Assembly: GCA_013286325.1 (NCBI GenBank)
Contig: JABDFZ010000026.1
Span: 1 to 33,732 of the forward strand
Direction: 5' to 3'
Source: Bacteroidota bacterium
Lineage (GTDB): Bacteria > Bacteroidota > Bacteroidia > Sphingobacteriales > Sphingobacteriaceae
Length of the DNA stretch: 33,732 nt
In this document: one piece after another, positions 22,338 to 29,096 of the stretch
How positions within the stretch are numbered: the stretch's first letter is position 1
How the letters are laid out: each line of letters begins with the position of its first letter
Made by a program: the position numbers and the translations under genes
Notes under the pieces: model-generated
Seen by the model: the letters and a program-made list of their open reading frames with translations, nothing else
What the model was told of the DNA's origin: nothing
The model's database searches: none

Positions 22338-22380
22338 CGTGATCCTATTCGGGTCAAATATTTAGTAGTATTTATAATCT

Positions 22381-22464
22381 TGTCATTGCGAGGAACGAAG
22401 CAATCTCGAACTGTTCAGGGCGATTATGCAAAGCCATGAGATTGCTTCGTTCCTCGCAATGACA
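22381..22464. repeat. Inverted-repeat element with perfect 27-bp arms between metH and metF
   Basis: Arms 22381-22407 and 22438-22464 are exact reverse complements, with a 30-nt loop. The ends begin TGTCATTGCGAGGAACGAAG, related to the TGTCATTTCGAACGA ends of the elements at 3739 and 20147. The stem begins 6 nt after the metH stop, so a metH-metF transcript would carry a very stable hairpin. A common type of dispersed repeat in bacterial chromosomes. Confidence 0.9.
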
Positions 22465-22470
22465 AATTTT

Positions 22471-25400
22471 TTAATAATTTATGTTCGGTCCCAGCCATTT
22501 TTCCATCTCTTCCAATGGCATATTCTTCCGTATAGCATAGTCCTCAACCTGATCTTTGCTGATCTTTCCTAAACCAAAATAGCGTGCCTGCGGATGGGCA
22601 AAGTAAAAACCGCTTACAGATGCAGCCGGTGTCATGGCAAGGCTTTCGGTAAGGTGCATTTGCGCGTTATCTTCGGCTTTCAGCAATTCAAACAGCGTAG
22701 TTTTCTCCGTATGATCCGGGCATGCGGGGTAACCTGGTGCCGGGCGTATACCTTGATATTCTTCTTTAATCAGGTCATCAGTACTTAGGTGTTCTCCTTT
22801 AGAGTAACCCCAGTACTCTTTACGCACCAGTTCGTGCATTTTTTCAGCAAAAGCTTCTGCCAGTCTATCGGCAAGGGCTTTAGCCATTATACTGTTATAA
22901 TCGTCGTAATCAGCTTCAAATTTGGCGACCAGCTCGTCGCATCCAATACCGGATGTTACCGCAAATCCGCCGAAATAATCCGGAACATCACTTTCTTTTG
23001 TAGCTATAAAATCGGACAGTGCGTAATATGGATCGCCTTTAACTTTTTCAGTTTGCTGGCGTAAAGTATGGATGCGGGTTAAAAGCGTTTTACGGGTTTC
23101 ATCCGTATATAATTCAATATCATCACCCACACTGTTAGCAGGCCAGAAACCTATTACGCCATTAGCCTTTAACAGTTTTTCATCAACAATCTTTTTTAAC
23201 AATACCTGTGCATCGTCATAAAGCTTTTTGGCTTCATCGCCCACAAACTTATCTGCAAATATTTTTGGATAGCTGCCCCGTAATTCCCAGGTATGGAAAA
23301 ATGGTGTCCAATCAATGTATGGCACTAGCTCTTCAAGCGGAAAACCTTCAAAAACTTTAGTGCCTGTAAAGGTTGGTTTTGGAGCAACATCGCCATCCAG
23401 GCTGATCTGAAACTTTGCATTTCGTGCATCTTCAATGCTTGCAAAACGCTTATCCGATTTTTTATTTGCATGAGCCTCTCTGGCTTTTGCGTATTCATCT
23501 TTAATGCTTTGTATATAAGCGTCTCTATTATCCTTGCTCATCAAATTGCTGCACATAGTAACGCTTTTTGAAGCATCAATACCATGTATTACCGGGCCCG
23601 AATAATTAGGATCGATCTTCACCGCAGCATGTATGCGCGATGTAGTGGCCCCACCAACAAGCAACGGAATGGTAAACCCTTCGCGCTCCATTTCCTTGGC
23701 AAAATGAACCATTTCATCCAGCGAAGGTGTGATTAGTCCACTAAGGCCGATTATATCTACATTTTGCTTTTTAGCTTCCTCAATTATTCTTTGTGCCGGA
23801 ACCATTACACCAAGGTCAATGATTTCAAAGTTATTGCAGGCTAAAACAACACCTACAATATTTTTTCCAATGTCGTGTACATCGCCCTTCACAGTAGCCA
23901 TTAATATTTTGCCTGCGTTAGCCCTGCTTCCGCTGGAATCTTCTCCCGCGTCAATAACCCTTTGTTTTTCCAGCTCGATGAATGGCAGTAAATAAGCAAC
24001 GGCCTTTTTCATTACACGGGCAGATTTTACTACCTGCGGTAAAAACATTTTGCCGGCGCCAAACAAATCCCCCACTATATTCATACCATCCATTAACGGA
24101 CCTTCTATTACCTCGAGCGGTTTAGCATAAGCCAGTCTCGCTTCTTCCACATCATCATCAAGGTATTCAATTATACCTTTTACCAATGCGTGCGATAAAC
24201 GTTCACTAACAGTTCCTTTACGCCACTCCTCGTCCCTTACAACCTCTTTTCCTTTGCTTTTTATAGTGTCGGCAAATTCAACCAGGCGTTCGGTAGCATC
24301 CGGACGGCGGTTTAACAATACATCTTCAACAAGCTCCAATAAATTCTTCGGAATTTCTTCATAAACCTCCAGCATCCCGGCGTTTACAATACCCATATCC
24401 ATACCCGCCTTAATAGCATGGTAAAGAAAAGCTGAGTGCATTGCCTCCCGCACGGTATTGTTACCACGGAAAGAGAAGGAAATATTACTTACCCCACCGC
24501 TAACTTTGGCATATGGCAGGTTTTGTTTTATCCAGCGGGTGGCTTCAATAAAATCAACGGCATAGTTATTATGTTCCTCAAGTCCGGTGGCTACGGTTAA
24601 TATGTTTGGATCGAAAATGATATCCTGAGGAGGGAAACCTACTTCGTTCACCAAAATATCGTATGATCGTTTACAGATCTCGATACGACGCTGCAATGAA
24701 TCGGCCTGGCCGGTTTCATCAAACGCCATTACTACTGTTGCTGCGCCGTAACTTAATATTTTGCGGGCCTGTTCTTTAAACTTTTCTTCACCTTCTTTTA
24801 ATGAGATAGAGTTAACTATCCCCTTACCCTGGATGCACTTTAAACCAGCTTCAATAACCGTCCATTTGGATGAGTCGATCATGATAGGCAGTTTGGCAAT
24901 ATCAGGCTCGGAGGCTACGAGGTTTAAAAACTTAACCATCACCGCTTCCGAATCAATCATCCCCTCGTCCATGTTGATGTCAATAACCTGCGCCCCTCCT
25001 TCTACCTGCTGGCGTGCAACAGTTAAAGCAGCTTCATAATCTTCAGCTAAAATAAGCTTGGAGAATTTTGGCGAACCGGTAATATTAGTACGTTCGCCCA
25101 CATTTACAAAGATACTTTCAGGGGTTATGGTTACCGCTTCAAGTCCGCTTAAGTGCATGTTAGGCTCAAGCTGCGGGATCAGGCGCGGCGGATATTTTGC
25201 CGCTTTTTCGGCAATGCACTTAATGTGCTCTGGTGTAGTGCCACAACAGCCGCCAACAATGTTAACCAGTCCGCTTTTTATAAAATCATCAACCTGGTGG
25301 GCTGTTTCGTGTGCAGTTTCATCATATTGGCCAAACTCATTTGGTAAGCCAGCATTCGGATATGCTGATATATACACATCAGCCTTTTCGGATAATTCAG

Positions 25401-26190: not shown

Positions 26191-26195
26191 ATTAT

Positions 26196-26312
26196 GATTT
26201 CACCGATTATTTGATGATTTCACCGATTATTTGATATGATTTACTGATTTTTTGAAAATGATTTAACTGATTTGATTTTATCAGTGCAACCATCAAATAA
26301 TCGGTGAAATCA
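26196..26312. repeat. Tandem and inverted 20-mer repeat in the metH leader
   Basis: GATTTCACCGATTATTTGAT occurs twice in direct tandem (26196-26215, 26216-26235) and once exactly inverted (26292-26311), with degenerate 10-nt units between. In the metH mRNA either direct copy can pair perfectly over 20 bp with the inverted copy; the nearer one ends 5 nt before the ATG. With the riboswitch, it makes up most of the 438-nt gene-free stretch 26191-26628. Confidence 0.9.
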
Positions 26313-26334
26313 TTAACCAATCTGTGTAATCGTC

Positions 26335-26379
26335 AAAAAAAAAGCTTATCTCGAAAAGTCGGCGTTATGTTGACTTTCG
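26335..26379 (-). promoter_or_regulatory. Candidate riboswitch expression platform (hairpin plus T9)
   Basis: Directly after the aptamer the minus strand has a stem CGAAAGTC/GACTTTTCG (one bulge, 11-nt loop), then AGATAAGC, then nine T. AGATAAGC is an exact second copy of the 3' side of aptamer stem P1 (26379-26386), so the P1 5' strand has two possible partners. This could be a termination switch; the folding choice is inference. Confidence 0.5.
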
Positions 26380-26486
26380 CTTATCTTTCCTGAAGGTTTT
26401 AACCGTTTCAAGTAGAATGTAGCACCTTGTAAGTACAGGTTGCTAAGACATCGCAGGGTCTAATCCCTCCGTCTTTCTCCATAAGC
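26379..26486 (-). promoter_or_regulatory. SAM-I (S-box) riboswitch aptamer upstream of metH
   Basis: On the minus strand the 108 nt carry the S-box landmarks in order: GCTTAT (P1), GGAGGGA, CCCT, TTAGCAACC, AGGTGCTA, TTCTAC, GAAAGATAAGC (closing P1). This is the Bacteroidota-style SAM-I aptamer. SAM binding normally lowers expression of the downstream gene, here metH and probably metF. A promoter placed so that transcription would start at the aptamer's first base lies just upstream. Confidence 0.93.
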
Positions 26487-26490
26487 AACG

Positions 26491-26521
26491 CAAAGATGCG
26501 TAATAAACAATTAATATGCAA
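26491..26521 (-). promoter_or_regulatory. Probable promoter of the metH riboswitch leader
   Basis: Minus strand TTG (26521-26519), 20 nt spacer, CATCTTTG (26498-26491), one mismatch to TAnnTTTG. Start of transcription would fall at about 26485, the edge of the aptamer, giving a leader of about 295 nt. Confidence 0.55.
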
Positions 26522-29019: not shown

Positions 29020-29096
29020 GAGATATGAGACGCGAGATACGAGATAATAAAAAATAAGACTCCGTCTCAAATCTCATATCTCACGTCTCATATCTC
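29020..29096. repeat. Heptad-phased hairpin between murQ and the S41 peptidase gene
   Basis: Arms 29020-29045 and 29071-29096 match in inverted orientation at 24 of 26 positions; both differences are C/T. Each arm is about four units of the type NNGAGAY. The loop is 25 nt. The strongest match of the heptad loci. The same core recurs in valS at 15391-15418. Confidence 0.85.

Follow-up and report, generated by a model that had tools for sequence, protein, structure and literature searches.

Why should a long and stable stem stand only 5 nt before the start codon of metH, in a leader that already carries a riboswitch? The window analyzed here (the whole stretch of 33,732 nt, from a bacterium of the Sphingobacteriaceae) holds, on its minus strand, promoter-like boxes, a SAM-I aptamer, a hairpin with a run of nine T residues (T9), and a repeat that ends just upstream of the ATG (Table 1). 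This order had been proposed in the initial annotation and was confirmed by the sequence and by the match to RF00162. Bacteroidota promoters have a -33/-7 box pattern, and of 56 metH leaders, 54 have an arrangement similar to that of the window on the 5' side of the aptamer. We propose, with a probability of roughly 0.7, that the stem represents a dispersed hairpin element, in a short copy that lacks an ORF, that it sits in a slot which is nearly always filled but whose occupant is often replaced, and that it is tolerated by folding on itself.

Table 1. Coordinates of the metH leader and of its surroundings in the window.
Feature	Position	Strand	Basis or remark
Promoter-like boxes, TTGC (26521-26518) and CATCTTTG (26498-26491)	26491..26521	(-)	Resemble the Bacteroidota -33/-7 pattern
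SAM-I riboswitch aptamer	26378..26487	(-)	RF00162, matched full length (model 1-108); 67.8 bits, cut-off (gathering score) 44.4; E 6e-14
Expression platform	26335..26384	(-)	ATAAGC, hairpin, second ATAAGC, T9
ATAAGC, first copy (3' strand of P1)	26384-26379	(-)	Sequence
Platform hairpin, GAAAGTC/GACTTTTC	26378-26353	(-)	Sequence
ATAAGC, second copy	26349-26344	(-)	Sequence
T9	26343-26335	(-)	Sequence
ORF-less hairpin repeat element, units TGATTNCACNGATT	26194..26332	(-)	Strongest stem 26196-26331
metH, cobalamin-dependent methionine synthase, 1239 aa	22471..26190	(-)	Five MetH domains in Pfam, all found; ATG 26190-26188, 5 nt from stem
Different hairpin repeat, GTCATTGCGAGGAACGAAGCAATC type, metH-metF gap	22369..22476	(-)	Fills the gap

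The repeat contains the 20-mer ATGATTTCACCGATTATTTG in two direct copies (26194-26213 and 26214-26233), and its perfect reverse complement once (26294-26313). These copies are as initially annotated, but that description was incomplete: further, diverged units are found in the leader (26259-26272, 26279-26292 and 26319-26332), so that each arm of the stem is formed by about three units. The repeat region folds far better than its shuffles (z -5.7; 0 of 200 shuffles). Sliding of the stem between two registers, which had also been suggested, is energetically possible, with best energies of -47.4 and -45.8 kcal/mol; the two registers are, however, unequal, the mean pairing probability being 0.89 for the inner 20-mer copy and 0.12 for the outer copy. 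With one register paired to this extent, a switch between two equal registers was ruled out.

Upstream of the repeat, the expression platform consists of a duplication of the 3' strand of P1, with ATAAGC present twice around a hairpin (26384-26344 in the window; L081-L110 and L174-L199 among the metH leaders). This block was detected in 52 of the 56 leaders. An intrinsic terminator with a T run was not found as a conserved platform, since a run of at least five T residues is present in only 19 of these 52 leaders; thus, the hairpin with T9 noted initially is present in the window, but its T run is not conserved in relatives. With an aptamer that is fully matched and located upstream of metH, the window resembles other SAM-I leaders (RF00162). 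Its platform is of the type formed by a hairpin and two copies of ATAAGC, a type that mostly lacks the T run of a terminator; SAM-I leaders from several other families of the class show instead a hairpin and then a T run (e.g. L241 and L249).

The unit that forms the stem recurs throughout the available genome (G000; 3.5 Mb, 61% complete, Mucilaginibacter-like), where 39 exact copies of the core AATCNGTGNAATCA were counted, split 19 to 20 between the two strands; the reversed core pattern, used as a control, had no copies in the same 3.5 Mb. The copies are mostly intergenic and often paired as inverted arms, and the letters between units vary among copies, although within one copy they can be mirrored (e.g. 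C2:69281-69391). A survey covering 420 kb of the genome gave 48 strong inverted repeats, counting every kind, of which 45 were intergenic; shuffled sequence gave two. As counted by eye in this survey, 21 of the 45 intergenic repeats have an end no more than about 10 nt from a predicted gene boundary, which makes a stem 5 nt from an ATG typical of this genome. Like MITEs, the repeat of the window is dispersed in many copies that lack an ORF and have inverted ends. Thus, the stem before metH is most likely one member, without an ORF, of a dispersed family of hairpin repeats and not a metH-specific regulator.

Loss of the repeat in relatives with unchanged metH control had been set beforehand as a condition bearing against a second layer of control at metH. 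We compared 56 Sphingobacteriaceae leaders, 30 from the same genus and 26 more, most of them from other genera of the family. Between the riboswitch block and the ATG of metH lie 87-169 nt in the 30 same-genus genomes, and in every one of them this space holds a hairpin repeat, of several unrelated classes; in the family as a whole the slot is filled in 53 of 56 leaders (occupancy was assigned by arm grammar, with some class labels set by eye, and the z of the fold is reported separately). Most relatives have indeed lost the repeat of the window, yet another hairpin repeat takes its place; because the lost repeat is replaced in this manner, a hairpin might have a role at metH whatever its sequence and independently of the particular element. 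An element is absent from two species with reduced genomes of 1.7-1.8 Mb (L186 and L194, genus g45), in which the empty slot reads ATAAGC-N10-ATG, and from one other. Among named strains, four of Mucilaginibacter carry four different repeat classes at metH, and the leaders of Pedobacter are filled or unfilled, some appearing empty. No such element was found before metH in most other sampled families of the class. In one genome of another family (G061), an inverted repeat with arms of the heptamer GGGTTTC lies just before the metH start codon (L254), in a leader without an aptamer match to the search pattern used.

The occupant of the slot changes often. On the metH tree, the repeat class changes 33 times, with a minimum of 6 and a mean of 34.1 for shuffled labels, and therefore carries almost no phylogenetic signal. 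Over 129 kb, two genomes (G013 and G030) share 93% identity, yet they have different repeat classes at metH; their metH-metF gap also differs, with an IVP gene in one and a GC-rich hairpin in the other. An IVP gene is found just downstream of metH in several relatives (e.g. G002, G003, G007, G010 and G011), and in the window a 7-nt-type inverted repeat, GAGATATGAGACGCGAGATACGAGAT, lies between two genes at 29020-29096.

Arms of this kind also enclose genes. Inverted repeats flank 13 of 18 PF13366 (GxxExxY) genes (p 1e-10) and 19 of 27 PF05635 (four-helix-bundle IVP) genes (p 2e-16), as compared with 0.25% of 800 random windows. This test replaced a first look for the exact motif of the window near GxxExxY genes across the class, which was mostly negative, as the arm sequence differs from one element to the next. 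Of 20 GxxExxY genes of the same genus, most of which came from unit-rich genomes, 17 scored at least 15 for flanking inverted repeats. Three of these 20 genes (L227, L235 and L237) have arms made of TGATTTCACCGATT units, which is the unit of the window's stem; the proteins of two of them (L227 and L237) were run against NCBIfam, and both matched TIGR04256, GxxExxY. Around IVP genes the arms repeat every 7 nt, examples being AGTATCAAGTAGCTAGTATCAAG and AGATGTGAGATATTAGATTTGAGA. Moreover, the copy number of the core rises with the number of PF13366 genes (rho 0.40, p 0.001; 61 genomes), and cores elsewhere in the genome are more numerous where the metH slot holds the window's repeat class (median 25 vs 11, p 0.008). 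PF13366 had no match in the window's own genome (61% complete). As judged from their sequences, longer members of the repeat family carry a GxxExxY gene, coding for a PD-(D/E)XK-like protein, between the same arms.

A second such site was found inside an RNA of the same genome. Another SAM-I riboswitch (C83:7713-7912; L112:1501-1700, minus strand) has a 100-nt insert with 7-nt-type inverted arms in the loop of P3, and its aptamer, otherwise intact, still scores 69.3 bits. Intervening sequences (IVS) of 23S rRNA sit in loops of this sort, and can carry an S23p/IVP ORF, as in Coxiella burnetii (PMC4990558). The likeness lies in the complementary ends that form a long stem, in the optional four-helix-bundle ORF in the loop (in the 7-nt-periodic class), and in the site, one where an insert can lengthen a hairpin, here the P3 loop. 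In contrast to IVS, the elements described here occupy intergenic DNA and the leaders of mRNAs, and they are numerous and fall into several arm classes; the class of the window goes with GxxExxY rather than IVP. Since the element of the window lies in an mRNA leader and not in 23S rRNA, our claim, made from sequence alone, is limited to an element that would work like an IVS. MITE and REP-type repeats are likewise short, intergenic, ORF-less versions of gene-bearing elements, with inverted arms and many copies; here, however, each copy has its own arm sequence, drawn from a common short-period grammar, and no transposase was identified. Direct repeats of the heptamer TAACTGA are found just upstream of start codons (PMC4679880), and resemble the 7-nt repeats that end a few nt from start codons; they too are present in some Bacteroidota. 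Those repeats are direct and of one word, whereas the arms here are inverted, with words that differ between loci and between species, and the unit of the window has a 20-nt period.

What, then, keeps a stem before metH? The initial annotation put forward a second control layer specific to metH, in which the exact stem, or the sliding of its register, would regulate translation, and named tolerance of the stem as the alternative. The stem does fold strongly and close to the ATG, but its unit is dispersed, its sequence is not kept in relatives, close ones included, and one register dominates; we regard this layer, which the sequence does not support, as very improbable, and dispersal together with the lack of conservation ruled it out as the main account. 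The alternative, tolerance, holds up. Mere tolerance would, nevertheless, predict more empty metH slots than were found, since the control genes are mostly unoccupied, and this counts against our explanation.

The filling of the slot may have one of two further causes. If metH needs some hairpin between the riboswitch and the AUG, as a spacer, an RNase III entry point or a translation damper, the sequence of the hairpin would be free, and selection would keep the slot filled while its occupants turn over. Such a need would fit the 30 of 30 same-genus and 53 of 56 family leaders that are filled, and also the comparison with tsaB and a CoA-binding-like gene, which were chosen as controls because their leaders are filled in the window's genome: among same-genus leaders, 53% are strongly structured (z below -3) at metH, against 10% and 17%, respectively, so that the near-constant filling is special to metH. 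The same measure shows, however, that about half of the metH stems are weak, and a strict, ungapped inverted-repeat score detects only 17 of 30 leaders, because many arms are imperfect; moreover, two reduced-genome species, one other species and, apparently, some Pedobacter strains do without an element. A captured function of this kind is conceivable, but we hold it with some doubt. Alternatively, the AT-rich DNA that follows the platform, adjoining an existing hairpin, could be a preferred target, re-invaded without benefit to the host. The random distribution of occupants on the metH tree is consistent with this, as is the presence of different elements at one place in a close pair at other sites too, and the frequent abutting of elements on gene ends elsewhere; on the other hand, a target sequence or duplication was not identified, and the control sites are re-occupied in few genomes. 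We consider a hot spot plausible, at somewhat less than even odds. The sequence fits both a preferred target and a useful hairpin at metH.

Our preferred reading, that of a tolerated copy of a dispersed element, starts from what the compared genomes display, namely the dispersal of the unit, the arms common with GxxExxY genes, and the occupancy, turnover and empty state of the slot. From these we infer that the stem carries no metH-specific signal. The elements would move between sites, and in the metH transcript the hairpin would fold on itself, thereby bringing the conserved end of the riboswitch (the second ATAAGC) to within a few nt of the AUG, as in the species with an empty slot; the element may be tolerated because folding keeps the geometry of the leader like that of an empty slot. 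Cutting of the stem by RNase III, as in the intervening sequences of 23S rRNA, is a likely further step, and an RNase III gene is present.

SAM-I riboswitches, IVS and IVP, MITE-like repeats and heptamer repeats (PMC4679880) are already known. In the literature searched, we found no link of IVP or GxxExxY genes to such repeats, which is weak evidence of absence, no account of the scatter of GxxExxY and four-helix-bundle IVP genes, and no description of matched hairpin elements with these genes or of a filled, exchanging slot at metH. Tentatively, we suggest that in the Sphingobacteriaceae, hairpin elements tolerated at the RNA level, formed by arms with or without a GxxExxY or four-helix-bundle gene, may invade mRNA leaders and even riboswitch loops and fold away or get cut out in the manner of rRNA intervening sequences, and that metH would be a landing site almost permanently filled, with its occupant swapped between unrelated families. 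Bacteroidota commonly carry GxxExxY and four-helix-bundle IVP genes, and the matched inverted repeats, together with the gene-free copies in regulatory leaders, give a testable account of their nature. The metH slot, in turn, offers a compact system in which to ask how bacteria live with stable stems adjoining start codons, and whether they put them to use.
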